A stretch of DNA of 35,046 bases from Deltaproteobacteria bacterium (GTDB taxonomy: Bacteria > Desulfobacterota > Desulfomonilia > UBA1062). The stretch covers positions 1-35,046 of the forward strand of contig JAJFUP010000178.1 of assembly GCA_021372395.1 (NCBI GenBank), written 5' to 3'. The position numbers were made by a program, and so were the translations under genes. Shown here piece after piece: positions 901-22,300 of the stretch. The notes beneath the pieces are model-generated. The model worked only from the letters and a program-made list of their open reading frames with translations, ran no database searches and was not told the DNA's origin. How positions within the stretch are numbered: position 1 is the stretch's first letter; the number at the start of each line of letters is the position of its first letter.

Positions 901-1749
901 TTATAGGAGACCAAGGCCCGAAAGAAGGGGCTTCGAGTCGATGTTGTGGAGTTTAATCCAGTCCTGCGAGCCCTTGAGCCCAAGCGCAATACCAATGAGT
1001 TCCGTGAAGTAGAAGACCGGTATTCTCAGCTCGGCCTTCGCCCTCATGTCGAGGTTTGCCATGCAAACCGGGCAGGCCACAGCGATGCAGTTGGCACCGG
1101 CCTCCTTGGCCATTTTCATGAGCTTGTTCACCATGTTGCCCACGATGTCGGACCTGCTTATGGTGAGGCTCCCTCCGCAACAGTCGGTCTTGTACGACCA
1201 CTGTTTCACCTCGGCGCCCAAGGATTCCATCATCTTGTCCAGCAGGACAGGGTTCTCATAGTTGTCGAATTCGCAGACCTCGGGGGGGCGCAGCAGGAGA
1301 CACCCGTAATAGGACACGGGTTTCAGTCCGGTCAGCTGTCGTTGCACCAGGCCTTTCAGGTTGTCGAGTCCGATGTCGTTGTAGATGATGTCGATGGGGT
1401 TTCTCACCCTGGCAGTGCCCTTGTAGGTCCAACCGACAATCTTTTCGATCTCTTTCTTGAGCTTCGGGTCATCTTTGAGGTGATGCTGAGCGCTCTTGAA
1501 ACGGTTGAAGCACGCGGCGCAGGGCACCATCACATCGAGGGCGTCTTTCTCGGCCGCGATCAGGTTCCGTGCCGGCAGTGCCACCGAGAGCTTGAAGTTG
1601 GTGCTGTGTGCCGACGTGGCGCCGCAGCATGACCAGTCCTCCACCTCTTTCAGCTCGATCCCCAGAGCGGCGCTCACCGCCTTGACCGACTGATCGTATT
1701 CCTTGGCCGTGGCATGGAGTGAACATCCAGGGTAGTATGAAACTTTCAA
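901..1749 (-). CDS. hdrB: Heterodisulfide reductase subunit B-like protein (CCG domains)
   Basis: The 282-residue protein has two cysteine-rich CCG domains. The first holds C9, the CC pair in WSCCGA near residue 41, and PCAAC near 77. The second holds YYGC near 150, DCCGG near 191 and ACPVC near 225. In HdrB these cysteines bind the noncubane [4Fe-4S] clusters that reduce a disulfide; here the natural acceptor is unknown. Both cysteine sets look complete, so it should be catalytically competent. The start is a TTG at 1747-1749, supported by a strong ribosome binding site (AAGGAGG, seven bases upstream). It lies 19 bp after hdrC and 26 bp before the HydB-like gene, inside one operon. Cytoplasmic. 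Confidence 0.9.
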   Translation of the reverse strand: MKVSYYPGCSLHATAKEYDQSVKAVSAALGIELKEVEDWSCCGATSAHSTNFKLSVALPARNLIAAEKDALDVMVPCAACFNRFKSAQHHLKDDPKLKKEIEKIVGWTYKGTARVRNPIDIIYNDIGLDNLKGLVQRQLTGLKPVSYYGCLLLRPPEVCEFDNYENPVLLDKMMESLGAEVKQWSYKTDCCGGSLTISRSDIVGNMVNKLMKMAKEAGANCIAVACPVCMANLDMRAKAELRIPVFYFTELIGIALGLKGSQDWIKLHNIDSKPLLSGLGLL

Positions 1750-1768
1750 CGCGTGCCTCCTTTACCCT

Positions 1769-2299
1769 TCATGACTGCTTGGTGGTATCACTGAAAATCT
1801 TCTTCACCGATGCCAGGTTTACGGTCTTGGGAGAGAAGATGGAAAGTTTTCCCTTCATGAACATTCCGAGACCCATGGCCATGTCCGAGAACAGATCTCC
1901 GGAAAGGAGCTTGTAGTGAACCATCATCATGGGCTCGTTGATCCTTCCGTTCATCTTGATGCTGGCGAGGAACGCCTTGTGGAAGGACAGAACGTTCTTC
2001 TCCCGTATGGCGCCTCCGTTCTCGATGGCCATCTGCCGAAGGACATCCATCATGCGGGCGATGTTCACCTCGTTGGGACACCGGGTGACGCAGGTCTCGC
2101 ATGAGGCACACAACCAGATGGTCGCACTGTAGAGCACCTCGTCCTTCATGCCCATCTGGATCATCTTGATGATCTTGTTCGGGTTGTACTCCATGACTGA
2201 GGCAAGCGGGCAACCGGCAGTGCACTTCCGGCAGTGATAACACCTCTGGATGGGCACCCCACCTATCTTCTCGTTCACTTCCTGCAGAAAATCGCTCAT
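1769..2299 (-). CDS. hdrC: Heterodisulfide reductase subunit C-like ferredoxin
   Basis: This 176-residue protein has two classical [4Fe-4S] motifs: CYHCRKCTAGC at residues 20-30 and CASCETCVTRC at about 64-74. That is the HdrC arrangement, in which the two clusters wire HdrA to the HdrB active site. Length fits HdrC. The ATG at 2299 is preceded by a GGAG five bases away. Eighteen bases separate it from the upstream ferredoxin gene and 19 from hdrB, so the genes are almost certainly cotranscribed. The roughly 90-residue C-terminal tail is helical-looking and carries no further cysteine motif. Confidence 0.9.
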   Translation of the reverse strand: MSDFLQEVNEKIGGVPIQRCYHCRKCTAGCPLASVMEYNPNKIIKMIQMGMKDEVLYSATIWLCASCETCVTRCPNEVNIARMMDVLRQMAIENGGAIREKNVLSFHKAFLASIKMNGRINEPMMMVHYKLLSGDLFSDMAMGLGMFMKGKLSIFSPKTVNLASVKKIFSDTTKQS

Positions 2300-2317
2300 A
2301 TCTGCTCCGTATCCGTA

Positions 2318-3325
2318 TTATGGGTGGTAGATGAAATCTTCTTTGTCATTCTCCCGGTACGTGCTCAGAGGCGGCACATCTTCGAGGGAAGACCCGGCCC
2401 GGTGCTCGAAAAGCTCAAAGGCGTCCTTGTCGAGCTTCTTGAGGAAGTTCCTCAAGTCTACGCCCATGGGACACACGGAAACACATGAGCCGCAGTCTAC
2501 GCACCGGCCCACCATGTGGTAGGTCCGCAGCAGCTGGAATATCTGGGTATCTGTCTGGTCTGCACTCAAGCCCACGAACGCAGGCATGGTCTGCTCCACG
2601 AAGCAGGTCTTGCAGTAGCATGAGGGACAGGCGTTCCTGCAGGCATAGCAGCGGATGCATTTGGACATCTCCTTGACGAAGTATGCCCACCGCTCTTCTA
2701 TGGAAAGCTTCTCGAACGCATCGACCTTGTCGAACTCCTTGTCCGCAGGCTTTGCAGGTGCAGGATCCCCGACCATCACGTCGGATATCACCGGGTTGTT
2801 GAACCTGCAGGTGAGGCAATTGTCCGCGAGCACATCACCGAGTGAGACATTCTTTTCGCCGGAGGCAACCTTCACCGCGACCTTGTCGCCCGAAATCGAC
2901 CCTTCGAGGATCTCTTCGCCACCTGCTGCGGCCGAGAGCTTCTTTGCATCGATGTATCCGTTGCAGGGAACACCGATGACGACGATGTCGTCCCTGTCGT
3001 ACTGCCGCTCCTGAAGATGGATCACCAGAGACCGGGAGGTGCATCCCCGTGCCACGATCCCCACGACCTTCTTTCTTTTGTCTTCGGGCTTGACCTTTTT
3101 CTGGGCTTCACGGTGCGTGCTGATGATGTCATGGGCGAACTTCGCCAGGTTCTGCACGCAGGTGGCGTCATACACGAGCTTTTCGGCCTCTTCGGGGCTG
3201 GTAATGAAGCAGGGCGTGGCCGTGAGCGGCAGCGTACCCCTCTCATAGCCGATAACCACGTCCACCTTCTTGTCAGCAAGCAGCTTCCCGGCTTCTTCCC
3301 GCATCTTCTTCTCTACGTTTTCCAC
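2318..3325 (-). CDS. Two-cluster ferredoxin-domain electron-transfer protein of hdr clusters
   Basis: This 335-residue protein has an N-terminal part of about 200 residues containing GCTSRSLVIHLQERQ and GVPCNGYID, which resembles the F420-hydrogenase/dehydrogenase beta (FrhB-like) fold. It is followed by two 4Fe-4S motifs, CIRCYACRNACP near residue 223 and CVDCGSCVSVCP near 275, with extra cysteines in SCYCKTCF between them. Such proteins recur in hdr, qmo and flox clusters of Desulfobacterota and probably shuttle electrons between partner dehydrogenases and HdrA. It starts with GTG at 3323-3325, with GAGG seven bases upstream, only 10 bp after the mvhD stop. It may correspond to FlxC, but I cannot settle that from sequence alone. 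Confidence 0.75.
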   Translation of the reverse strand: MENVEKKMREEAGKLLADKKVDVVIGYERGTLPLTATPCFITSPEEAEKLVYDATCVQNLAKFAHDIISTHREAQKKVKPEDKRKKVVGIVARGCTSRSLVIHLQERQYDRDDIVVIGVPCNGYIDAKKLSAAAGGEEILEGSISGDKVAVKVASGEKNVSLGDVLADNCLTCRFNNPVISDVMVGDPAPAKPADKEFDKVDAFEKLSIEERWAYFVKEMSKCIRCYACRNACPSCYCKTCFVEQTMPAFVGLSADQTDTQIFQLLRTYHMVGRCVDCGSCVSVCPMGVDLRNFLKKLDKDAFELFEHRAGSSLEDVPPLSTYRENDKEDFIYHP

Positions 3326-3335
3326 GGCTTATCCT

Positions 3336-3773
3336 CTATAGGGTTTTGACAAATTTCCTGGCGGGGCCGAGATCCCTGACCTTCGCGGTCACCCCCTTGA
3401 TAATCTGGGCGAATCGATCACCCTCGGAGGCAGAGCACCACGTGAACATGGTCCGGTCCGGTTCCATACCGATATAGGTAAGGTACCGCTTGAGCATCGC
3501 GAACTTCCTGCGGGCCGAGTAGTTTCCGGTGATGTAGTGGCATTCACCGGGGTGACAGCCTGAAACGAGGACTCCGTCCGCACCTTCCTGGAGTGCTTTC
3601 AGGATGTAGAAAGGATTGATGCGCCCGGTGCAGGGGACCCGTAAAATCCGCACATTCGGCGGATACTGGATCCGGCTGATCCCTGCGAGGTCTGCACCGG
3701 CATAGGTGCACCAGTTGCATACGATAGCGATGATTTTCGGTTCCCATCCATCGGTCGTCATTGCTTCAGCCAT
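3336..3773 (-). CDS. mvhD: MvhD/FlxD-like [2Fe-2S] electron-transfer subunit
   Basis: This 145-residue protein carries the full MvhD cysteine pattern: CNWCTYAGAD, RVPCTGRINP, GCHPGECHY and WCSASEGDRF. In methanogens MvhD links the [NiFe] hydrogenase to HdrA. In bacterial Hdr-Flx complexes the equivalent is FlxD. Its place directly after the hdrA-like gene, with a 56 bp gap, fits this linking role. The ATG at 3773 has GGAG five bases upstream. No hydrogenase catalytic subunit is visible in this window, so the electron donor may be NAD(P)H through the FlxAB side or an unlinked dehydrogenase. Confidence 0.9.
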   Translation of the reverse strand: MAEAMTTDGWEPKIIAIVCNWCTYAGADLAGISRIQYPPNVRILRVPCTGRINPFYILKALQEGADGVLVSGCHPGECHYITGNYSARRKFAMLKRYLTYIGMEPDRTMFTWCSASEGDRFAQIIKGVTAKVRDLGPARKFVKTL

Positions 3774-3829
3774 ACTGTCTCCATTCTCAAAACTGTACCC
3801 TTTCTCGCGAGTGATTCAGAAAAAGGTTC

Positions 3830-6800
3830 TTATGCTGCAAACGCTGCAATCTGGATCAGCACCTCTTCATTCGTAAACCCGTTCAAGTCCACCGCGTTCA
3901 TACGGCAGGATGCCGTACATACGCCGCATCCCTTGCACAGGACAGTGTTCACCACTGCCGCGCCTTCGGTCGCGTCCACTGCTATCGCACCGAACGGGCA
4001 GTTCAGCTCACACAGGCCGCAGGCAGCGCAGCGTTCCTTGTTGACAAAGGCTGTCTTGCCTTCGGCCTCAATGAAGTCCTTGGTGAGGATCGTGCTTGCC
4101 CTCGAAACAGCCGCGTTGGCCTGGACGATTGAGTCCTCGCTCAGCTTGGGCGCATGGGACATGCCGCACATGAACACCCCGTCCGTGGCAAAATCCACCG
4201 GCCGCAGCTTCACATGTGCCTCGAGGAAGAAACCGTCCTGATTGGTCGGGACCTTCAGCATCTTCCCGATCTCCTCGTTCTGAGGGTTCGGCACCGTACC
4301 TACGCTCAGCGCAAGCATGTCGGCGAAGATGGTCACCGGAGAGTTCAGGATCGGGTCAAAGACCTGGATGGCAAGCTTCTCGCCATTGTCTATGACCTCG
4401 GGCTTGCGGTCTTCGTCGTAGCGGACGAACTTGACATTGAGCTCGCGCGCCTTCTTGTAGAAGTCTTCCTTGAGCCCGAAGGTCCGGATGTCGCGGTAGA
4501 TGATGGTCACGTCCTTGTCCGGGTCCATCTCCTTGAGCTTCAGCGCGTTCTTCATGGCCTCGCTGCAACAGTAGCGGCTGCAGTAAGGCCGCTCCTTTGT
4601 GCGTGACCCCACGCACTGGATCATGACGATGCTGCCGGCCTTGCCGACCTCGGCGTCTTTCTTTGCAATGAGGCCTTCCAGGTCACGCTGGGTGATGACC
4701 TTGTTCGACGTGCCATGCAGGTATTCGTCGGTTTCAAGCTCATAGGCGCCGGTGGCGACGATCACGACCCCGTGCTCGAACTTGGCCTCGCCGGCCTTGT
4801 TCCTGATGGTTGTCTTGTAGTTGCCGATGAAGCCTTCAATCTTCTCGATGACGGCCCCGGCATGGACATGTATCAGCTCATTGTCGTTGATCTTCTTCAG
4901 GAGCTTGGCGAGATGCGCCTTCGCGTCGAGGCCCTCGAGGGTATAGTGCAGCTTGGCGTAGTTCCCGCCGAGCGCATCTTCCTTCTCGACGATATGCGAC
5001 TCGAAACCCTGGTCGGCGAAAGACAGGGCCGCGGTAATACCGGCCAGGCCGCCGCCGATGATGAGCACCGCATGGTTGACTTTCAGCTGACCCGGCTTGA
5101 GGGGCTTGAGATACTCGGCCTTTGCAACGGCCATACGCACGAGGTCCTTGGCCTTCAACGTGGCTGCCGCGGGCTCGTTCATATGGACCCAGGAAGCCTG
5201 GTCGCGGATGTTTGCCATCTCGAAGAGGTAGCGGTTCAGTCCTGCCTTTTCGCAGTTCTCCTGGAAAAGCCCTTCGTGAGTCCTCGGTGAACACGAGGCT
5301 ACAACGACCCGCGTGAGATTCTGTTCCTTGATGACCTCACCCATCTTCACGGCCGTGTCCTGCGAGCAGGTGAAGAGGTTGTCCGTGGTATAGACCACGT
5401 TCGGGAGGGTCTTGGCGTAGTCCACGACCGCGGGGACGTCCACGACGCCGCCGATATTGATGCCGCAGTGGCACACGAACACGCCGGTCCTCGGGCCGAT
5501 GCCCTTGATGTCCTTCTCCAGGGGAACGTCGGCCTCTGCAATCATGGTGCCCCTGCGGTCCGCAAGCAGTCCGGATGCGCAGGCAGCGGCGCTGCTCGCC
5601 TCCATGACCGTCTCCGGGATGTCCTTTGGTCCGCCGAATGCACCGCAGACGAAAACGCCTTCCCTGCTGGTCTCCACGGGATTCTCCAGGGATGTCCTGC
5701 AGAAGCCGTGCTCTTCGAGCTCTATGCCGAGCGCCTTGGCGAGTTTCTCGGCATCTTTGGGCGGGGTGAGCCCGACGGAGAGCACCACCATGTCGAATTC
5801 TTCCTCGATGAGCGTACCGTCTTCCTGCACATAGGTCATGAGCAGATTCTTGGACTGCTGCAGTTCCTTTACCGCAGACGGCATGGAACGGATGTAGCGT
5901 ATCCCGTACTCATCCTTGGCGCGGTTCACGAAGCGGTCGAAGTCCTTGCCGTGGGCGCGGATATCCATGAAGAAAATGGTCGGCTCCAGGCCCTTCGCAT
6001 GCTCCTTGCCGATGATGGCCTCTTTGGTGGCGTACATGCAGCATACCGACGAACACCAGGAGTTGCCGCAGTTGGTGTCGCGGGACCCCACGCACTGGAT
6101 GAATGCGATCTTCTTGGGTTCCTTGTGGTCGGAGAGCCTCTGTACATGCCCGAAATACGGGCCCGATGCCGAGAGGAGACGCTCGAACTGGATGGAGGTG
6201 ACCACGTTTTCATAGGTGCCGAAGCCATACTCGCCGCGAAGTCCTGCATCGAAGGTTTCGAATCCGGCTGCCGCGATAACCGCACCGACCTCGACGGTCT
6301 CCACCTCGTATTGCTCGTCGTGGATGATGGCCTTTGCAAGGCAGGCATTTACGCATTGATAGCACTCGGAGCAGATGCCGCAGCTCAAGCACCGATTGGC
6401 CTCGGCCACGGCAGCCTCTTCGGTCATACCCTGAATGACCTCGCCGAAGTGGGCCTTCCGTGCATCAGGGTCGAGATGCGACATGTGCACCCGCGGGGCC
6501 TTGGGCACGTCCGTCAATTCCTTCTCGTCCTTCTCCGCAAGCCGCACGTGCAGTTTGGAATAGGATACGCCCAGTTCATCGGACACCCCGCTGATGTCCT
6601 GGTCTGCGAGGCCCTTGGTCCAGTACTTGACCCTGCCCTCTTTCACGTCCACATTCGTGAGGTACCGGTCGATGGATATCGCCGCTTCCTTGCCTGCATT
6701 GACCGCTTCGACCACGGTGGCTGCTCCGGTCATGGCATCACCGCCGGCGAACACGCCTGGCATGCCTGTGGCAAAGGTGAACGGTTCGACATCGATGGTC

Positions 6801-8344
6801 TTCCACGCGCTCAAGGTGATGCCGCTCTCCTTCGGGAGGAAAGAGAGGTCCGCGGACTGGCCGATGGCCGGCACGATGGCATCCGCCTCCACCACGAACT
6901 CGGACCCTTTGACCGGGACAGGTCTGCGCCTGCCGCTGGAGTCGGGTTCACCGAGTTCCATCCGGATGCATTCGATGCCCTTGACCTTACGGGGGTTCTG
7001 AATGTCGCTGACGACACGAACCGGGGCCACGAGGAAGTTCATCTTGATCCCTTCTTCTATGGCTTCTTCGATCTCTTCCGGGGCTGCCGGCATTTCTGCG
7101 CGGGATCTGCGGTAGAGGATGAATACATCCTTCGAGCCTGTGCGGACCGCGGTCCTCACCGCGTCCATGGCCACGTTGCCGCCGCCGATGACCGCGACCT
7201 TGTCGCCCAGGAAGACCTTTTCGCCCAGATTCACGCGTTTCAGATAATCGATTCCGTGGATGACGCCTTCGAGGTCTTCGCCGGGTATGTCGAGCTTCGT
7301 GCTGATGTGCGTTCCACAGCCGAGGAACAGGGCATCGTGCTTTTTCCTCAGATCCTCGAAGGAGATGTCCTTTCCGATTTTCGTATTGCAGATGATCTTT
7401 ACGCCCAGGTCTTCGATGACCTTGATTTCGGCCCTGATGACATCCCTGGGAAGACGGTACTCGGGAATGCCCAGCGTGAGCCAGCCACCGGGGATCGGGG
7501 CGGCTTCGTACACCGTGACATCATAGCCTTCGACAGCGAGGTAGTAGGCTGCGCTCAAGCCTGCCGGACCGGCGCCCACGATACCGACCGTCTTGCCCTT
7601 CTTTTCCTTCACCTCGGGAACGTACCGGGTCTGGGCATCCAGATCGAGGTCTGCGACGAAACGCTTCAGATGCATGATGTCCACGGACTCGTCCACCTTG
7701 GCACGCTGGCACGCCTTCTCGCAGGGGTGGTTGCACACGCGGCCGCAGACGGCCGGGAAGGGATTGTCCTTCTTGATAAGCTTCAGGGCATCCTGGTACT
7801 TGCCCGTCTGGATGAGGGCCACATAACCCTGCACGCTGATATGCGTGGGGCAGGCGGCCTTACAGGGAGAGGTGCCTGTCTTGTCGATGGCGAACCCGCT
7901 CGGTATGGCCTGCGGGAAGTGCCGGTAGATGGCCTTGCGATCCCCCAGATTCTCGTTGAAGTCGGAGGACACGGTGACCGGGCAGACATTGGCGCAGTCG
8001 CCGCAGCCCGTACACTTGCTCAGGTCGACGTACCGCGGTGTCTTCAGGAGCTTGACCGTGAACTTGCCCGGTTCGCCCTGTACCGACTCCACTGTCCGGC
8101 GGGTGAGAATCTGAACGTTGGGGTGTCGCCCGACCTCCACGAGCTTTGGAGAGAGGATGCACGCAGAGCAGTCATTCGTGGGGAAGGTCTTGTCGAGCTG
8201 GGCCATTACCCCGCCGATGCTGATCCCGTTATCCACGAGATAGACCTTCATGCCCGAATTCGCCAGATCCAGTGATGCCTGGATGCCCGCGATACCCGAC
8301 CCGACAACCATTATTGCGCCGATCTTTTCGCTGTCTTTAATCAC
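3830..8344 (-). CDS. hdrA: Giant HdrA-type flavoprotein with inserted GltD/NfnB-like module
   Basis: About 1,504 residues, more than twice a simple HdrA. In order: an HdrA FAD motif (VVGSGIAG, near 13), a CTGCGDCANVC cluster (111-121), then an inserted glutamate-synthase-small-subunit-like module. That module has cysteines of the Fer4_20 type (161-212), an FAD motif (IVGAGPAG, about 255) and an NAD(P)H motif (VIGGGNVAMD, about 385), and ends near 565. The chain continues with a CLSCGICSECYQC cluster (652-664), the rest of the first HdrA unit, CHCGINIGG (958), a second HdrA-like FAD motif (IIGGGLAG, about 1095) and two C-terminal ferredoxin clusters (1439-1449, 1470-1480). HdrA performs flavin-based electron bifurcation; the insert suggests direct NAD(P)H input. 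A GTG at 8351-8353 is also in frame, but the GTG at 8342-8344 has AAAAGGG eight bases upstream and is preferred. Confidence 0.9.
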   Translation of the reverse strand: MIKDSEKIGAIMVVGSGIAGIQASLDLANSGMKVYLVDNGISIGGVMAQLDKTFPTNDCSACILSPKLVEVGRHPNVQILTRRTVESVQGEPGKFTVKLLKTPRYVDLSKCTGCGDCANVCPVTVSSDFNENLGDRKAIYRHFPQAIPSGFAIDKTGTSPCKAACPTHISVQGYVALIQTGKYQDALKLIKKDNPFPAVCGRVCNHPCEKACQRAKVDESVDIMHLKRFVADLDLDAQTRYVPEVKEKKGKTVGIVGAGPAGLSAAYYLAVEGYDVTVYEAAPIPGGWLTLGIPEYRLPRDVIRAEIKVIEDLGVKIICNTKIGKDISFEDLRKKHDALFLGCGTHISTKLDIPGEDLEGVIHGIDYLKRVNLGEKVFLGDKVAVIGGGNVAMDAVRTAVRTGSKDVFILYRRSRAEMPAAPEEIEEAIEEGIKMNFLVAPVRVVSDIQNPRKVKGIECIRMELGEPDSSGRRRPVPVKGSEFVVEADAIVPAIGQSADLSFLPKESGITLSAWKTIDVEPFTFATGMPGVFAGGDAMTGAATVVEAVNAGKEAAISIDRYLTNVDVKEGRVKYWTKGLADQDISGVSDELGVSYSKLHVRLAEKDEKELTDVPKAPRVHMSHLDPDARKAHFGEVIQGMTEEAAVAEANRCLSCGICSECYQCVNACLAKAIIHDEQYEVETVEVGAVIAAAGFETFDAGLRGEYGFGTYENVVTSIQFERLLSASGPYFGHVQRLSDHKEPKKIAFIQCVGSRDTNCGNSWCSSVCCMYATKEAIIGKEHAKGLEPTIFFMDIRAHGKDFDRFVNRAKDEYGIRYIRSMPSAVKELQQSKNLLMTYVQEDGTLIEEEFDMVVLSVGLTPPKDAEKLAKALGIELEEHGFCRTSLENPVETSREGVFVCGAFGGPKDIPETVMEASSAAACASGLLADRRGTMIAEADVPLEKDIKGIGPRTGVFVCHCGINIGGVVDVPAVVDYAKTLPNVVYTTDNLFTCSQDTAVKMGEVIKEQNLTRVVVASCSPRTHEGLFQENCEKAGLNRYLFEMANIRDQASWVHMNEPAAATLKAKDLVRMAVAKAEYLKPLKPGQLKVNHAVLIIGGGLAGITAALSFADQGFESHIVEKEDALGGNYAKLHYTLEGLDAKAHLAKLLKKINDNELIHVHAGAVIEKIEGFIGNYKTTIRNKAGEAKFEHGVVIVATGAYELETDEYLHGTSNKVITQRDLEGLIAKKDAEVGKAGSIVMIQCVGSRTKERPYCSRYCCSEAMKNALKLKEMDPDKDVTIIYRDIRTFGLKEDFYKKARELNVKFVRYDEDRKPEVIDNGEKLAIQVFDPILNSPVTIFADMLALSVGTVPNPQNEEIGKMLKVPTNQDGFFLEAHVKLRPVDFATDGVFMCGMSHAPKLSEDSIVQANAAVSRASTILTKDFIEAEGKTAFVNKERCAACGLCELNCPFGAIAVDATEGAAVVNTVLCKGCGVCTASCRMNAVDLNGFTNEEVLIQIAAFAA

Positions 8345-8386
8345 TTGGCACACCCTTTTGTGAATGAATACTCATTTCTTTTACCA

Positions 8387-10230: not shown

Positions 10231-10236
10231 CCTCCT
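10231..10236 (-). promoter_or_regulatory. Strong ribosome binding site of the lyase gene
   Basis: The minus strand reads AGGAGG nine bases before the ATG, a full Shine-Dalgarno match that fixes the start. It is independent of the leader peptide, whose stop codon lies about 146 bases upstream. Confidence 0.75.
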
Positions 10237-10360
10237 GTCTCATACTGTTGGTATTTTCCTGTCGCATGCCCGTTAAGGCCGATACGCGGGGGCGCAAAAA
10301 AAAGGCGCAGCCGGATTCGGATGAGAATAAACGGTTCGCAGAGATGAGATGTTCGATTGT

Positions 10361-10380
10361 CCCCGGGCTAAAAGCCGGGG
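10361..10380 (-). promoter_or_regulatory. GC hairpin overlapping the leader-peptide stop codon
   Basis: On the minus strand CCCCGGCT and AGCCCGGGG pair around a short T-rich loop, with one extra base in the 3' arm. The 5' arm is made of the leader's final Pro-Gly-Phe codons, and the UAG lies at the start of the 3' arm. A ribosome finishing the leader would melt the hairpin; one stalled on the tyrosine codons would leave it free to form. About 65 bases downstream an eight-U tract (plus-strand A-run 10296-10303) follows a weak GC stem and may be the actual termination point. The mechanism is inferred. Confidence 0.5.
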
Positions 10381-10433
10381 TAGAGATAGTAGTATTTGGA
10401 GGTCCGGGTTTGTGCAGTTTTCTGAGCTGTCAT
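10368..10433 (-). CDS. Tyrosine-rich leader peptide upstream of the lyase gene
   Basis: A 21-codon open frame on the lyase strand begins ATG at 10433 and ends TAG at 10368. Its last nine residues are KYYYLYPGF, so four of five consecutive codons are tyrosine. It sits between a candidate promoter and the lyase start and leads into a GC hairpin that covers its stop codon. Tyrosine codons right before a hairpin, upstream of a gene for a tyrosine-lyase-like enzyme, are what a tyrosine-sensing leader would look like. TnaC in front of tnaA is the known analogue for tryptophan, where the nascent peptide stalls the ribosome. The ribosome binding site is weak (only GAAGAA near the ATG), which lowers confidence. 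Confidence 0.6.
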   Translation of the reverse strand: MTAQKTAQTRTSKYYYLYPGF

Positions 10434-10461
10434 GTTCTTCATGTCATACCGTGTGGATTAT

Positions 10462-10490
10462 TCTCTACCTTATTTTTCTTCCCCGGTCAA
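10462..10490 (-). promoter_or_regulatory. Candidate promoter of the leader-lyase transcript
   Basis: The minus strand has TTGACC (10485-10490) and TAGAGA (10462-10467) with a 17 bp spacer, in an A-rich stretch. Transcription would start near 10455, giving about 22 bases before the leader ATG. The -35 is good and the -10 is poor. Confidence 0.35.
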
Positions 10491-10572
10491 GGGCCTGGCT
10501 GCTGGGAGGACGTTTCCTCTGCAATCTTTCGAAGACCGCCCCGATGTGGTATTAAAAGGTTGTGAGGTGCGG

Positions 10573-11199
10573 ATGAGGCTGCTCGTTCGAGGCGGAAGCA
10601 TCCCTGCAGGGGTCGGGGTCACGAGGAGTTACGTTGACATGCTGGGGAGGTTCTGCGCATCCCGGGGTGTCGAGCTCATCAACCGCAGCCGGCCGTACGA
10701 GAACTCGTTCGACGGCATCAGGTCCTTTCATGAAGACATCGATCCCTTCCGGCCGGAGATCCTCCTGCTCCACTTCGGCATCGACGACGCCTTCTGCCCG
10801 GTCTACCGCTCGGAGTTCAAGGAGAACCTGGTGAGGATCGTCCGCCTGGCCCGGGAGCGGTTCGACCCTCTGATCATCATGCCCACCTCCCACACCTTCG
10901 ACAGCCCGCACGATACGGATGCCCTGAACATCTACTACCGGGCCATACGGGAGGTGTGCCAGGATCTCTCCTGCGAGATGATCCCGTTCCATATCTTCTG
11001 GGCAGGGCATCTCGAGGACCAGGGGCTCAGAAACCGGGAGCTCCTCCAGCAGGACGAACGCTACCCGAATGAAAAAGGCCACGCGGTCTATGCCGGGACG
11101 ATCATGCGCAGGCTCGAGAGGATAATCCCCACGGTGCTTTCAGGCCCCTGCAGCAATCCTTGTGCGCCCGGGCAGACGTGGTACAAAGATCTTCAGTAA
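10573..11199 (+). CDS. SGNH/GDSL-hydrolase-like protein with altered catalytic motifs
   Basis: This 208-residue protein starts at the ATG at 10573, with GAGG five bases upstream. Block I is RGGSIPAGVGVT with the candidate nucleophile Ser9. The block III GxND motif reads GIDD, and the block V DxxHPN motif reads DERYPNEKGH, so the usual Asn is Asp and the usual catalytic His is Tyr. The fold assignment to the SGNH superfamily is good, but classical esterase chemistry is doubtful unless the later His in KGH substitutes. There is no signal peptide from this start. It is followed after 13 bp by a small membrane-protein gene, probably in the same transcript, and diverges from the lyase gene. Confidence 0.7.
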   Translation: MRLLVRGGSIPAGVGVTRSYVDMLGRFCASRGVELINRSRPYENSFDGIRSFHEDIDPFRPEILLLHFGIDDAFCPVYRSEFKENLVRIVRLARERFDPLIIMPTSHTFDSPHDTDALNIYYRAIREVCQDLSCEMIPFHIFWAGHLEDQGLRNRELLQQDERYPNEKGHAVYAGTIMRRLERIIPTVLSGPCSNPCAPGQTWYKDLQ

Positions 11200-14076: not shown

Positions 14077-14452
14077 GGAATTCACCTCACCCGAATATGA
14101 ATCCCCCTGATGCGGTGGGGCCTCAAACAGAGATACCACATCGTGAAAGTATTGTAAAACAGAAGGGCTTGGGCGTTCTTTCCCCACATCCCCGGGCGAT
14201 GCTCCCTGCCGAACGGTATCGGCTGTACCAGGCTGTAATTCTGGCACCGGATCATGCGTCACAGGGGGCATCCCCTTGGTTCATTGGTGAAATCCGCTTT
14301 GGCCTTTCATTCCGAACAAAATCGCGGGTTCAGAAAAAGCCGCATCAATTCCTTCCATTACTATGGTCTCTTGTGATATTGAAATATCCATAAGGTACAC
14401 CTCTGTCACGCTGTTCGCCCACATACGAGATGCAAAGGAGAGAGTTGACACC
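14077..14452. other. Divergent intergenic region with promoter candidates
   Basis: This 376 bp gap lies between plsC (minus) and the first giant gene (plus), so it must carry both promoters. Besides the minus-strand candidate listed separately, there is an inverted repeat GATATT-GA-AATATC at 14375-14388, about 65 bp before the giant gene. I cannot pick a convincing plus-strand -35/-10 pair. No gene or structured RNA is evident. Confidence 0.4.
14130..14158 (-). promoter_or_regulatory. Candidate promoter of plsC
   Basis: The minus strand reads TTTACA (14153-14158), a 17 bp spacer, then TATCTC (14130-14135), with TGG just before the -10 as an extended -10 element. It is about 55 bp upstream of the plsC start. 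Confidence 0.35.
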
Positions 14453-17400
14453 ATGAGCAGAGATCTTACAGACGAAATTCCCTCCAGAAAGATGTTCCAG
14501 TGGCCCGGGGCAAAGGTGCTTCCTTCCCAGCATACCGTTCCCCAGGATATCATACAGTCGCTCACCCACCGGCTGAACCGCCTCCGCGACCAGCATGCCC
14601 TCCTGATGTTCCCTGCGCGGGACCACGGCATCGATGAGCCTTCGCTGTACATCATGGATGTGTTGAGTCCCGTGACCATCACTATCGAGGACCCCTCGAA
14701 CATCGTGTACACCTTCGAGCTCGATCCGGACCGGCTCGACATCCTGGCCATCTGCATACCGGGCTCGGGTGCACCCATCGTATCCAACATCATGGTTTTT
14801 CACGATTATAATGCCAACCTCTACGTGACCAAGCCCCTGAGCACTTACCTGGCCCACTCCCCGGGCCAGATCATCGCCCAGGCCAAGATCCACGAGATCT
14901 CTTCCCTGCTCTTCAACCAGATCTGCCGGGAGATCTCACCGGATGTTCCCCTCCACCAGGTCGGCTTTCAGGACCTTTCTCTCGTGGTGCGCGAATTCAT
15001 CTCCCGGTATTACTACCATGCCCAAACAGACAGCGCGGCCCTGGGAGAACCGTTCTCCTGGGAGTTGTTCGAGCAGCTCTTCACCCCGGAGAAGCTCTTC
15101 GGTTTCATGAATTCCAGGGCTGTCCAGAAGAGGATCTCCGAAGGATTTGCACCGATCCATATCATCGCCTGCCTCCTGGAGAAGATCGACACCTTTTGCC
15201 GGGACCCGCTCTCCTCCATAGGGGCCAAGAAGGTGAGCAGCATCACCCTGGAACAGGTGGACAAGATCGTGGAGGAGAGCACCCTCGACGCATTCCTGTT
15301 CCCGAAGAAGGTCATCGCGCAGACCATCGCCTCCCTGAGCGGGAACGACATCCTTGCCCGCATCGCGCAGCGCTACTCCCTGGATTTCCTCACGTATGCC
15401 CTCATCTCCCAGTACGGCCCCATCCACAAGGCGAGGAAGGCCCTCGAGAAGCTCAAGATCCTCCAGTACGATCTCACCGAGAACCTGGTGAAATCGGGTG
15501 TTTACGATTTCGACACAAGCAGGAGGATCGTGAACAAGAACACCGAGGCCTTCGAGCGGACCTCTGCCGGAAAGTCCGACGATGCCTTGAGCGAGAACAT
15601 CATACGCACCCTGTTCGACCCCTTCCGCATCGATTTCATGAAGCAGCTCTCGCAGCTCCTCATGGACCGGAGGCTCATCACGAGCGACGAGGCGGCTACG
15701 TTCTTTGCGGGCGACCGGACCTTCTTCGACAGCGCGGGAAAGGTTCAGGATTTCCTCGACAAGAGCCGCCAGGTGACCGAGCTGGACAGGCAGATCGTCA
15801 CGGACAAGCTCCGCACCTGGACCTCCTTCATGGATGACATCGCCTCCTCGTTCCTGGTGAAGTGGAAGCACTGGAGGGACTGCGTCAATGCCGAGATATC
15901 CGGGCTGAACCAGTGCAGGCTCATCCCGCCTGACATGAAGGGGAAGATCATCCTGGACGAGCTGAACCGTCTGCTGGCCTATCTGTTCACGCGGGTGTAC
16001 CTGAATGTTCCCAGGTTCAAAGACCTGAGGAAGCCCACCGTGGTCTTCATCCATGGGGGAGCAGGGGTGGGCAAGAGCACCATCGGGAACGTGATCTCGA
16101 AGAAACTGGGCATACCCACCTACTTCAGGGCCACCATCACCCGTGCGGTCATGCGTCATTTCATCCCCATGCACCTCTGCCCGGAGGTTCACCGGTCGAG
16201 CTACCAGGGGAGGCCCACGATCGAGGGTTTCTACGAGCAGAGCTTCAGCATCTCCAAGGCCATAGAAGCGGTTCTGGACCGGGCCATCAAGGAAAACACG
16301 AGTGTCATGATCGAAAGCGGGGTGCTCCTGCCGGGGACCCTTTCGAGACAGTATTACGAGAGGGCCAACATCGTGGAGGTCCTGCTCGCGGCCCCCGAGA
16401 ACAAGATAACCCACCGGCGCATGCTCGTCGGCTCCGTCTCGCTCGGCAAGGACAAGAACAAGAGGCTGAACAATTTCCATCCCATCCGCCTCATCGATTT
16501 CGTCATGAAAAAGCTCGCAAAAGACCGTGAGATCACCGTGATCGAGCACAAGGACATGCAGGACATCATTTCGGAGATCATGGTGAGGGCCTTGAACCCC
16601 TATACGGACCGCTGGTTCGGCATGATGAGGGAAGACATCATCGAAAAGGTGCTCGCCGAGCACAGGCGCAAGGACGATCTCAGGCGCCAGATGTACGTCC
16701 GGCTCCCCATCACGCGCGAACAGATCAGGCAGACACGGCAGCACCTGCCCGCAGCGGTCGAAAGCGTCGTGGCGTGCCTGGGCAAGGAAAAGATCGATGC
16801 CGTCATCCGCGCTCACGAAGATGTGCTGGAGGAGACCCGGGCCTGCTTCATGAGGCTCAGGACGCAGGAATTCAAGATGCTCAGGTACCTGCTCGGCCAG
16901 ATGGACGACCCGTACGATCACGTCCGGCAGAATCTCTTCTTCATCGTGAACAACTCCCGCAACGCGCCTCAACTCGTGAGCCACCTCAAGGAGATGCTCT
17001 ACCCCGTGCTGCTTGAAAACCTTCACCGTGAGCTGGAACAGGACGGGTATCAACCGGAAGAGCTCCTGGGGAAAGGTTCATTTGAATCATTGGTGTACGA
17101 CTTGTGGAACATCCCTGAGGTAAAGGATATTCACATCGAGAAATACCGCTCCATGGTAAGGAGCTGGGGCGAAAACCTCGAGCATCATGCCAATGACTAC
17201 TTTCTCGCCTACTCCCTGTGGGAAGAGGCCTTCGCCAGGGAGGAAGAGGAACTGGGCGGCCACACCGAGATCACGAGGGACCGTTCCCTCAATATCACGG
17301 TCAAGCAGCTCCATGAGTGCATCCGGTTCATCTATGCCCAGAACACCCCGGGCGTCGAGAACCTCAAGAGCCTCGACAAGCCGCTCATCATCATCGTAAC

Positions 17401-19258
17401 CGGGCCCAGCGGCGCCGGCAAGTCCACCATTGCCAAGGCCCTGAAGCGATCGTTCAACATCCCCACCTCGTTCTCCACGGACCTCATCAGGGAAGACGTG
17501 AGGAAGCTCGTGCCCAAATCCATCTGGCCGCATGTGCACTCATCGAGCTTCAAGATCGAGAGCGCCGTCAGGTCGGAACTTGTCGACGAGTACGAGAGGG
17601 TCAGAGGCACCTCCGACGAAGAGCCGTTCACGCAAGGATGGAGGAAAATGGTCCTCGATCACTATTACTCCCACAGCCTCGTGATCTTCGAAGGGGTGCT
17701 GGCGACCATCAAACGCCAGATTGAGCGCAACCAGAGCCTCATCATCGAGGGGATCCCGCTGATACCCGGCGTTCTTCCCCCCTGGTACTACGAGGATGCC
17801 AACATCATCCAGATCGTCGTCACCATCTCCGACGAGTACGAACACCTCACCAGGTGGGACAAGCGCAGCGTGGAACAGCCCGACCGCTACAAGGAGGGAT
17901 CCCGTCGCTACAAGGAGGACTTCATACCGATACGCTTCATCACGAAGCGCCTCGAAGAGATGGCAGCGGTTGCAGGCCTGAAAATCGTCGAAAACTCGAA
18001 TCTCGAAGAGTCCATTCAGGAAGCGGTGGAGCACGTGGGCGGTCCCATAGCCGACCGGTACTCCTACATTCCCGACGAGGTCAGAAGAGCCACATGCCTC
18101 GACCTGTCCCACCGCTCGAGGAAACCCCTCAAGACCTGGGGCGCATGGTGCACCGACATCGACGACACCGTTATCCTGTCCGGCAAGATGCCCTCCGAGA
18201 GCCAGCTCAAATCCATAAACGCGTTCGTACGTGCATTGGCAGCCAAGAAGGTAGCCTGGGTCCCCATGTCGGGCGTCTCCTTCGAGAAGATCAAGCCCCG
18301 GATCCTGGACAGGATAGACCCGGAACTCAAAGAGCACATGCTCTTCTACGGCGGGGACGGCAGCAGCAGGTACTTCTACAACAAGGAAACCCTCGGGTGG
18401 GAGAAAGACCCCTCCTTCGAGCGGCTCCTCTCCGACGCCCAGGCCATCGCCATCATGGGCCTTGCGGACTTCAAGGCACAGCTCGCGACCCTCCTGAGCC
18501 TGGAGGAAAAGCTTCCGCCCGACAGCGACCACGTAAGGCGCATGGTGAAGAAGAGGATGGCCGAGGCGCAGCAGGTGCTCGGAGAAAACGGTTTCGACAG
18601 GCGCCGGGGAATTATCGACGAGCTCAAGGATGTTTTGAAGACACGGGGCTACAACCCGGCAAAGGCGGATTCCTACTACCGGGTGGGCTCAGTCTCCTGG
18701 ATGATGTTGGGCGACATCGATGCACAGAGCTATGCCGAGCCCGAGGCGAAACAGGTGCGGGAGGAGCTCCTGGACCTCGTGGACCGAAGGCTCAGGGAGT
18801 CCGACTTCCTCGCAACCCTTTCGGAGACGAGGACCCGGGTGATCAAGCCCTTCCCCGGCGCACGGGGGATCAAGTTCGTGCTGGAGAGGAACAGCAAGGA
18901 GCGCTGCATCCGCGACATCATCGAGAACCAGGGGCTCTTCGCGGAAGAGATCCTCTTTGCGGGAAACGAGCTCATGGACGGCGGCAACGATTACGTGGTG
19001 ACCCGGATCAAGGGCCTCAACCTGCTGTCCTTCGGCCACAAGACCGAAGAGAACATCCCCTTCGGAGGGCTCGGGGTGGATGCGAACCAGGCGTGGTACG
19101 ACATGCTCGCAGGGCTGCTGGAAAGCCTCCCCATCAATGGGGGCGAGACCTGGGTGAATCTCCTCACGCAGATCATGAAGGGCGAGATCCGCCTGGGTGA
19201 GGGCTCAAGGACTGCGTGTGGCGCTCCGGCCGGGGGCGTCCTCCCTGAAGGCAGGTGA
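14453..19258 (+). CDS. Giant double 2-phosphoglycerate-kinase-like / HAD phosphatase protein
   Basis: 1,601 residues from the ATG at 14453, with AAAGGAG about 12 bases upstream. Residues 1-520 are mostly helical and unrecognised. A P-loop kinase domain follows at about 525-715 with GGAGVGKST (535-543). After a helical linker, a second runs from about 975 to 1200 with GPSGAGKST (984-992). Both continue with an LCPEVHRSSY- or IWPHVHSSSF-type block and an IExGxxLxPG-type segment, the pattern of archaeal 2-phosphoglycerate kinase (COG2074). The first domain has Thr where the second has Asp in STDLIR. The C-terminus (about 1225-1560) is a HAD phosphatase: TDIDDT with D1235/D1237, MSG, K1482 and GNELMDGGND (1504-1513). 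No signal peptide or membrane span, so cytosolic. A dikinase-like giant follows 64 bp later. The substrate is unknown. Confidence 0.75.
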   Translation: MSRDLTDEIPSRKMFQWPGAKVLPSQHTVPQDIIQSLTHRLNRLRDQHALLMFPARDHGIDEPSLYIMDVLSPVTITIEDPSNIVYTFELDPDRLDILAICIPGSGAPIVSNIMVFHDYNANLYVTKPLSTYLAHSPGQIIAQAKIHEISSLLFNQICREISPDVPLHQVGFQDLSLVVREFISRYYYHAQTDSAALGEPFSWELFEQLFTPEKLFGFMNSRAVQKRISEGFAPIHIIACLLEKIDTFCRDPLSSIGAKKVSSITLEQVDKIVEESTLDAFLFPKKVIAQTIASLSGNDILARIAQRYSLDFLTYALISQYGPIHKARKALEKLKILQYDLTENLVKSGVYDFDTSRRIVNKNTEAFERTSAGKSDDALSENIIRTLFDPFRIDFMKQLSQLLMDRRLITSDEAATFFAGDRTFFDSAGKVQDFLDKSRQVTELDRQIVTDKLRTWTSFMDDIASSFLVKWKHWRDCVNAEISGLNQCRLIPPDMKGKIILDELNRLLAYLFTRVYLNVPRFKDLRKPTVVFIHGGAGVGKSTIGNVISKKLGIPTYFRATITRAVMRHFIPMHLCPEVHRSSYQGRPTIEGFYEQSFSISKAIEAVLDRAIKENTSVMIESGVLLPGTLSRQYYERANIVEVLLAAPENKITHRRMLVGSVSLGKDKNKRLNNFHPIRLIDFVMKKLAKDREITVIEHKDMQDIISEIMVRALNPYTDRWFGMMREDIIEKVLAEHRRKDDLRRQMYVRLPITREQIRQTRQHLPAAVESVVACLGKEKIDAVIRAHEDVLEETRACFMRLRTQEFKMLRYLLGQMDDPYDHVRQNLFFIVNNSRNAPQLVSHLKEMLYPVLLENLHRELEQDGYQPEELLGKGSFESLVYDLWNIPEVKDIHIEKYRSMVRSWGENLEHHANDYFLAYSLWEEAFAREEEELGGHTEITRDRSLNITVKQLHECIRFIYAQNTPGVENLKSLDKPLIIIVTGPSGAGKSTIAKALKRSFNIPTSFSTDLIREDVRKLVPKSIWPHVHSSSFKIESAVRSELVDEYERVRGTSDEEPFTQGWRKMVLDHYYSHSLVIFEGVLATIKRQIERNQSLIIEGIPLIPGVLPPWYYEDANIIQIVVTISDEYEHLTRWDKRSVEQPDRYKEGSRRYKEDFIPIRFITKRLEEMAAVAGLKIVENSNLEESIQEAVEHVGGPIADRYSYIPDEVRRATCLDLSHRSRKPLKTWGAWCTDIDDTVILSGKMPSESQLKSINAFVRALAAKKVAWVPMSGVSFEKIKPRILDRIDPELKEHMLFYGGDGSSRYFYNKETLGWEKDPSFERLLSDAQAIAIMGLADFKAQLATLLSLEEKLPPDSDHVRRMVKKRMAEAQQVLGENGFDRRRGIIDELKDVLKTRGYNPAKADSYYRVGSVSWMMLGDIDAQSYAEPEAKQVREELLDLVDRRLRESDFLATLSETRTRVIKPFPGARGIKFVLERNSKERCIRDIIENQGLFAEEILFAGNELMDGGNDYVVTRIKGLNLLSFGHKTEENIPFGGLGVDANQAWYDMLAGLLESLPINGGETWVNLLTQIMKGEIRLGEGSRTACGAPAGGVLPEGR

Positions 19259-19322
19259 CCCCTGCAGTGATACCGTCATTCATGTCCATGGGCCCCACGA
19301 CAGGGCATACCGTGAGGATCTC

Positions 19323-22300
19323 ATGAAAGAGCCGGGGCCTGCACACTGGATCATGGGGCTCCCAGACGCTTCGACCGGTGATGCGATAGACTCCCTGCCA
19401 CAGACGATACAGCGGCTCGTTTCGCAAGACATGCAGGCATACGCCCTTCCCGGGACGATCTCTTCCCGGGTGCTGGGCTTTCTCCTCTCATCTCCCGATC
19501 TCAGGGAAAACAGCCGGAACCTCCTGGAAGGTCGACCGGTGAAGCTTCCCGCGGATCCTGCCCTGGGAGACCGCATCACCGCGGGCCTCGACAGGATGAT
19601 CCTGGCTGCCCTCCCCCTCGAAGGGCCGCACGGTTTCCTCGAGCACGGCCTCGCCCCCCCCGTTGCCTCTGTCAGCCTCGTGGTCGAACTGCCTGCGGGC
19701 TCCATGCTCTTGGTCGCCATGACCCGGCCCTTTTTCGAACGCACCATGACCGGACCTTCCTGGCTGAACATCCTTGCCCAGGTAGTCTTCCGTGAGCTCA
19801 CGATCCGCGTCGAAGGGCTTTCCCCTCTCGAGGCCCGGATCGAAGAATCCAGATACAACTCGTTTCATACCACGGGCTCCGTGATGAGCGACCTCATCAG
19901 GGACAGTCTCCTGTGCTGCGCAGACCGTGGCGAGTTTGAGCGGCTCGAGGAGATCGCAGGTTCTCTCGATGCCCTTGAGGCTCAGCTCCGAGAGATTCCC
20001 GCGGACAGGCTCGGGCCCGGCGGGCTCGCACGTGCACAGGAGCTCGCCCGGGGCGTGTCGCAGGAGGCGGGTTCCCTTGCAAGGCTCTCCCGCATCGAAG
20101 ACTATGCCACGGGCAAACCTCTCATGATCAGGCCTGCGGACATCATCGCGGAGAAAGTGCGAACCGAGCTCAGCATAGCCGAGCTGCCCTGCCTCTACCT
20201 CCCGCCCTACCTTGCAGGCAGTCTCGGGGAGAGGGTTGCAGGGATCACCCACCAGGGCTCTCCCCCGCAGGTGCGCGTGATCAGGGACGTCATCGCGTAC
20301 AAAAGTCCCCCCATGACAATCGGAGACACCCCGCTCGCCGACTCGGTCAGGCACTGGGTGGAGCTCTACCTCGAGTTCTGCGAGAGGAACATCGAGGGTC
20401 TCGAACTGCTCCAGAGCGGAATCATGGGCCCGGCGGACATACACGAGGCCCGGTCGATCATCGATGACATGATCGAGATCCACGGCAAACTCATCGCAGG
20501 TACGGACCAGACGTACCACGAGCAGCTCGAGGCCACCATTGAAGGCTCCGCCGGCAGCGAGACCCTGGGCCTGACCCTCAACAGGCTCATCAACACCATA
20601 CACCAGGACGTGCTCAAAAACGTGTTCGGCGTGTTCAAGGGATGGAAGAACGTCATCGGCGAGGTGAACACCATATCGAGCAAGGCCGTATGCGTCACCA
20701 TCGATGCACAGGGGGGGATGGAGTTCTACCCGGCGAACAAGGTGAACATCATCGATTACTCGGGCGACTTCAGGAGCCCCCGGGCCGTGCCTGCACGCAC
20801 CATCATGGAGTCCTACCTCTCCACAAACGTCCACCTGAGGGACAACTGCTACATCGACTGCATCTCGCACACGAACAAGGCATGGTTCTTCGTGGACCTC
20901 GGCCTCCACGGCGCCAACATCTTCGTGGACCTCGACCCGAACAAGCCCATGATCACTGCAAGCTATGCCGAGGGAAACGTGGAAGACGGCAACATGGCGC
21001 GCATGAGGGTCCTCATGGACACGATGATCGAACTCGGATTCCAGGTGAGCAAGACCGAGATCACTCTCGCTGCGCGCCTTGACGAGAAAACCTCCGGAAC
21101 TCTCGATGCCGGTGAGCTCATCGACAAGGCGGTCTGGACCATCCAGGCCTTTGCGAGTGTGGCTGATTTCGACCAGGAGATCGAGGACGGCCGCATCACG
21201 GACAGGTCGCTGGCCTTCCACCGGCAACGCCTGGCCGCCTCGGGAACCGGCTTCCCGCTCTACATCATCACCAGGGGCGCCATAGAGCTCAAGAAACTGA
21301 GCGAGACCCTGGCCGGGATCAATGCCGCGGCGATCCCCCTGCTCAATTCCGAGCTCAACCGCCTCGGCCTGGAGACGATACCGGAAGGAGACGCGTCCTC
21401 CAAGGCCGTTGAGATGTTCTTCAACCGCCCCATAGCCCGGGGCATTGAAGCAGGCGAGTTCCTCTCCCTTGCAGGAGATCCCCTCTTCCGGAACCCCGGG
21501 TACGAGAGGCCCGACCCCCTGGTCTACCTCGCCGGGCTCCTCCCGGAGGCCTGCCTCACGGAGACTGCGGGCATCGTGAACATCCTGGACAAGGTGGTGG
21601 GGTCGGTCTCCCTCAAGACCTCGGGCCAGGACGCTTTGACCCGGTCCTGCATCCACCTCTCCGGCGAGACCTTGAGCCTCTATGCACTGAGGGACCACGA
21701 CTCGTACAAGCCCATCCGGGCCTTTGCCGCCAACGGGCCCTCCCTGCGCAAGGTGCACGAATCCGACAACATAATCCGCGACCCCGCATCGCTCAGGTCC
21801 CTGCTCGAAAAGCACGGGTACCATCTGGAGGCCATCGAGAAGAGGCTCCAGTGGTCTTCCCCGGTGGGGATGCCCATCAGAGGGATCACCGCAGGCGCCA
21901 TCACCTCCTGCCCCGGCATCGCCACCGGTTTCCTGAGGAAGAACAGGCCCGAAAGCATACCGGATGATTTTCGCTCCTCCATCTTCTCCGACACGCTGCT
22001 CACCCCCGAAGAGGTGGGCAGGCTCCAGGAGGCAGCCGGCTACATCACCACCCGCGACTCCACGCTTTCCCACGCGCAGCTCACGGCGCGCACCTTCGGC
22101 AAGCCGGGAGTGATCCTGCAGGCAGCCCAGTGGTGCGGGGACGGGCCCGAGGCACGGCTTCTCCTTTCGTTCGGCAACCAGCAGAACCGTGCCGTTCAGG
22201 AAGGCGTAGTGGTCACCGTAGACGGCTTCCGCGGCATGGTCGTCCTCCCCGGCGCCTCGCTGAACCCTGAAGAGGATTTCAGCGAGGTCATACACGAGAC

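Follow-up and report, generated by a model that had tools for sequence, protein, structure and literature searches.

Does the short, tyrosine-rich reading frame that precedes a lyase gene in this deltaproteobacterial contig encode a leader peptide through which tyrosine controls that gene? The window, which is the whole stretch of 35,046 nucleotides that was analyzed, carries both genes on its minus strand (Table 1). The original prediction described a tyrosine-rich frame of 21 codons before the lyase gene, and this frame is real: translation of 10368..10433 (-), starting at the ATG at 10433, gives MTAQKTAQTRTSKYYYLYPGF followed by a stop codon, 146 nt from the lyase ATG (10221). An in-frame ATG at 10442 would lengthen the peptide by MKN. 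Four of five consecutive codons near the end of the leader specify tyrosine (YYY-L-Y), and shuffling the 300 nt before the lyase gene gave a short frame with at least four tyrosines among its eight final codons in 2 of 20,000 cases. If the first ATG is taken as its start, the frame of an SGNH hydrolase on the opposite strand, 10432-11199 (+), extends into the leader. The true start of the hydrolase is probably the ATG at 10573, which follows GAGGTG, and the leader promoter would then stay free.

Table 1. Features of the leader-lyase region, in window positions
Feature	Position	Strand	Remarks
TPL-like beta-eliminating lyase, 481 aa	8776..10221	minus	Pfam PF01212, E 8e-61
Shine-Dalgarno sequence AGGAGG of the lyase	10231..10236	minus	direct reading
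Conserved C/T-rich block, candidate Rho-binding (rut) region	10331..10360	minus	directly after hairpin
G+C hairpin	10361..10380	minus	CCCCGG (10380..10375) pairs with CCGGGG (10366..10361), 6 bp
Leader peptide gene	10368..10442	minus	(MKN)MTAQKTAQTRTSKYYYLYPGF-TAG, 24 codons from ATG 10442
-10-like TAGAGA, weak	10462..10467	minus	17-nt spacer; tentative
-35-like TTGACC	10485..10490	minus	TTGAC common to three genomes

The closest solved (PDB) relatives of the lyase are tyrosine phenol-lyases (TPLs; best E 8e-135), ahead of tryptophanases. The protein scores 504.2 bits with the NCBIfam TPL equivalog TIGR02618, below its cut-off of 720.7, and it is therefore called TPL-like rather than a member of that equivalog. 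The claim that it has a TPL-like ring pocket was borne out, in that all five of the pocket residues compared, which lie around the phenol ring, are kept (T124, M379, R381, F448 and F449 in Citrobacter freundii numbering). In TPL, Thr-124 and Arg-381 bind the tyrosine hydroxyl (PMC11301627). Complete relatives from the same clade, with 56-78% identity, also keep the five residues; the exceptions are L051, which is apparently frameshifted and unaligned there, and the truncated L059. The tryptophanase-type relatives differ: at about 40% identity, they mostly have D, V/C, I/V, H and F at these positions, which is the tryptophanase pattern. The substrate of the lyase is very likely tyrosine or a closely similar compound. 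In the phylum, a more distant genome has two tandem tryptophanase-family genes (L004 / L007, G054:C32:111573-114335), the second of which contains three in-frame stops (two TAG and one TAA).

Downstream of the lyase, after a gap of roughly 420 nt, lies a gene group (901-8353, minus strand) consisting of a large HdrA/GltD-like fusion (1507 aa) and MvhD/VhuD-, HdrC- and HdrB-like genes, apparently an electron-bifurcating complex. Elsewhere in the window, 14363-24107 (+) holds two adjacent very large frames of 1631 and 1636 aa, the first with two P-loop kinase-like regions (AAA_18 and Cytidylate_kin2).

Comparison of the upstream regions of related genomes had been proposed as a check on the leader, and it was carried out. 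Among 60 relatives searched, close lyases were found in only two other genomes of the class, G011 and G021, each from another genus of the same family as the window, and a search of public genomes returned the same two loci (L009 in G011 and L059 in G021). Both keep the tyrosine run and the hairpin: their upstream frames start with GTG and end in VYYYLYPGC and CSYYYLYPGC, and YYYLYPGC-stop lies with the same hairpin at the same position before the lyase. At the DNA level, the YYYLYPG pattern occurs once in each of the three lyase genomes and is absent from the other 39 of the class, and an RNA model of the leader element matches the same three of 42 class genomes. The presence of the leader therefore coincides completely with that of the lyase. 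The leader, hairpin, post-stop block and lyase gene are conserved as a unit. The neighboring genes differ, with a divergent SGNH hydrolase in the window, a sigma-54 activator in G011 and a TatD-like gene in G021. The recurrence of YYYLYPG[F/C]-stop in two other genera is the strongest evidence against a chance origin of the frame.

Beyond these three genomes, all from one family of the class, the leader was not found. None of about 70 more distant lyases has a YYYLYPG-type short frame within 600 nt; these leaderless lyases come from several phyla, and some are 68-76% identical to the window lyase. The leader pattern had no match anywhere in 25 lyase-bearing genomes, the RNA model had none among the more distant lyase relatives, and a relaxed pattern run across 395 genomes of the phylum matched the window, G011 and unrelated, chance-like sites that lack the tyrosine motif. 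More distant lyases of the clade lack the leader, and it is therefore a device of one lineage, not a general trait of the enzyme family. The original prediction of a tyrosine-sensing leader thus stands as regards a conserved, apparently translated, tyrosine-rich leader before a TPL-like lyase gene, and is narrowed to a single lineage.

Several other short frames were encountered in these searches. A few tyrosine- or tryptophan-containing frames upstream of lyases in Bacteroidales, L071 among them, occur singly, are rich in A+T and were put down to chance, as was an IMG/VR contig in which the match to the 27-base pattern falls within a phage gene but not in frame. A lyase of 76% identity is preceded by a frame of 21 codons, MMLSLSPRILPHAFEARGLRY (L010:2841-2906, +), and the final part of this frame overlaps with a perfect hairpin, GAAGCCCGCGGGCTTC; the architecture is similar, without a tyrosine run, and the likeness may be due to chance. 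In G021, an extra short frame with a good Shine-Dalgarno sequence, MKTSLEAEHGTGPSGSCRACGAAFVLRGRNTMFY (L059:2821-2925, +), lies between leader and lyase, and L009 has a shorter one with the related start MKTLSETEETR that ends at the lyase ATG. These two are possibly a second, decaying leader or a small gene.

The proposal that the terminal leader codons form one arm of a GC hairpin was confirmed by the pairing listed in Table 1, with the Pro-Gly codons CCC GGC as the 5' arm and the leader stop codon (TAG, 10370..10368) in the loop. Both arms are invariant across the three genomes, and so the stem offers no covariation evidence. Over 300 nt, the leader region folds no better than its shuffles (z -0.02), and only the local 6-bp hairpin is notable. 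An Rfam 15 scan of the window gave no match above the gathering score. Upstream, the counterparts of the -10-like element in the two relatives are TATATA and TATAAA, TA-rich and 17 nt after TTGAC; a consensus scan of the window found no promoter site at its threshold, which makes the -10 assignment tentative. The distance from TTGAC to the conserved core CTCTACCCCGGC is fixed (105, 107 and 107 nt), whereas that from the core to the lyase varies (164, 202 and 341). In the two relatives the GTG start coincides with the expected 5' end of the transcript, and leader translation may thus be leaderless or nearly so. The block directly after the hairpin has no stable structure of its own in any of the three genomes and is mostly unstructured. 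Invariant columns make up 0.5-0.6 of this block, compared with 0.16-0.28 farther downstream. In the 80 nt after the hairpin, C and G number 28 and 13 in the window, 19 and 10 in L009, and 19 and 16 in L059.

One must ask whether the frame is translated at all, since the conserved stretch could instead be an untranslated RNA or DNA control element, such as a promoter or operator with a hairpin, in which the frame is incidental. Conservation of CTCTACCCCGGC and the hairpin arms at every position would fit such an element, as would the poorly conserved N-terminal half of the peptide and the lack of a visible Shine-Dalgarno sequence before the leader. However, the pattern of change within the core argues for coding. 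The three tyrosine codons vary at third positions only (TAC TAC TAT, TAC TAT TAC and TAT TAT TAT), the stop codon alternates between TAG and TAA, of the five columns that vary within the nine final codons, four are synonymous by direct reading, and the frame is open in all three genomes from a start near the predicted transcript start. The length change within the peptide, just before the tyrosine run, amounts to two codons, and single-base indels occur directly after the stop, with some gaps placed differently in a second alignment of the three leaders. The fraction of invariant columns peaks at 0.8 on the tyrosine run and hairpin, compared with 0.16-0.28 in the rest of the spacer; and the four-fold sites of the lyase are only 49-60% identical between genomes, whereas the leader core is invariant. 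An untranslated element is accordingly improbable, and the unit is, with high probability, a genuine regulatory leader that is translated.

Granted translation, the chief rival to a tnaC-like device is codon-based sensing of charged tRNA-Tyr, in which scarcity of Tyr-tRNA would slow the ribosome on YYY-L-Y. Where the ribosome stands would then decide the states of the hairpin and a downstream (Rho-type) terminator, and the peptide itself would not be sensed. Four tyrosine codons in five are typical of attenuator leaders, and the Pro-Gly pair may be fixed merely as the codons that form the hairpin arm. The hairpin begins at the codon that follows the last tyrosine and has the stop codon in its loop, a layout like that of the trp 1:2 hairpin. 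However, the leader region showed none of the mutually exclusive hairpins, with an intrinsic terminator as the last, that mark a classical attenuator. A consensus scan of the gene strand between leader and lyase detected no intrinsic terminator in the three genomes, and folding before every T-run of the three spacers gave no convincing one (just two weak folds, of -2.9 and -6.2 kcal/mol, one per relative). Candidate downstream partners for the CCGGGG arm exist in each genome, but none is common to all three. These two results speak against a classical competing-hairpin attenuator. Furthermore, derepression at tyrosine starvation would have the wrong sign for an enzyme that degrades tyrosine. 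On balance, codon-based attenuation seems unlikely. A translated leader might also sense something other than tyrosine, for example phenol, which the lyase should release, to judge by the TPL reaction, or it might act only through translation coupling or mRNA stability. The tyrosine run and the tyrosine-type pocket both point to tyrosine, and a leader-lyase spacing that ranges from 146 to 323 nt argues against direct coupling; these readings are very unlikely.

The tnaC-like device is favored by the lack of an intrinsic terminator or a conserved competing hairpin, by a conserved, mostly unstructured block at the position of the tnaC rut site, and by a full-length rho gene in two of the three genomes (G000 and G011); in the G021 assembly, which is 93% complete, full-length Rho was not found. 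In such a device, translation of the leader would proceed as far as YYYLYPG[F/C]. With ample tyrosine, the ribosome would stall at or next to the stop codon, with the Tyr/Pro-Gly C-terminus responding to tyrosine in the exit tunnel, and the stalled ribosome would melt the hairpin and cover the conserved block just after the stop. With the block shielded, the lyase would be expressed and would split tyrosine. At low tyrosine, the ribosome would leave, and the exposed block would let Rho load and end transcription before the lyase. We infer the following from the sequences: leader translation, stalling, the tyrosine ligand, the involvement of Rho and the sign of control. Certain observations count against the scheme: the unit is represented by three sequences of a single family and is missing from the more distant lyases, the post-hairpin excess of C over G is weak in L059 (19/16), a run of tyrosine codons is also a hallmark of codon-based attenuation, and the TnaC residues needed for tryptophan sensing are without counterpart in the leader. 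The mechanism as a whole, in which tyrosine-dependent stalling shields a Rho site before the lyase, has in our judgment an even chance of being right. A bolder reading is a nascent-peptide arrest sensor for free tyrosine that evolved apart from TnaC. It would have a recognition motif of its own, YYYLYPG[F/C]-stop, would control a lyase that degrades tyrosine in one family of the class, and would be translated from a start at or near the transcript 5' end. That reading is offered tentatively, as a possibility on which we would place somewhat less than even confidence.

The leader is best seen as a lineage-specific invention, a variant of leader-peptide control represented by three genomes. To our knowledge, arrest peptides that respond to a free amino acid are few, with TnaC and tryptophan as the model example. 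If the tnaC-like reading is true, a tyrosine counterpart before the sister enzyme would mean that the same regulatory solution has arisen twice with a different peptide, and the two peptides could then be compared directly to learn how the ribosome tunnel distinguishes tyrosine from tryptophan. We know of no earlier leader-peptide control of a tyrosine phenol-lyase, and a literature search, whose coverage excluded most subscription papers, found no paper on a tyrosine leader peptide of a TPL gene.

The resemblance to tnaC of E. coli and Proteus vulgaris lies in a short leader of similar length (21-29 versus 24 codons), a downstream lyase of the same enzyme family, the prominence of the matching amino acid in the leader, a proline near the C-terminus, the lack of an intrinsic terminator, and the position of a candidate rut block, which directly follows the stop. 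The precedent for the last feature is the Rho-binding site of tnaC, which lies right after the leader stop (PMC8429421). The residues listed as needed in TnaC are Trp12, Asp16, Ile19 and the C-terminal Pro24 before the stop (PMC8429421). In contrast, the three leaders contain no tryptophan, leave W12, D16, I19 and P24-stop unmatched, and have their proline third from last; with these essential residues missing, the leader is not a TnaC homologue. It also ends in YYYLYPG[F/C] with UAG or UAA where tnaC uses UGA, has a hairpin over the stop codon, and has an apparently (near-)leaderless start with no visible Shine-Dalgarno sequence. Classical attenuators of the trpL, pheL and hisL type share the run of relevant codons and the hairpin overlapping the leader end. 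They differ from the present case, which lacks both a U-tract terminator and competing hairpins that are conserved, and they precede synthesis genes, whereas the gene downstream here degrades the amino acid. The tyrosine phenol-lyase of Citrobacter freundii is regulated by TyrR, a DNA-binding protein that senses tyrosine. Control of the enzyme would thus be linked to tyrosine in both cases, through the TyrR protein there and through the proposed leader peptide here.
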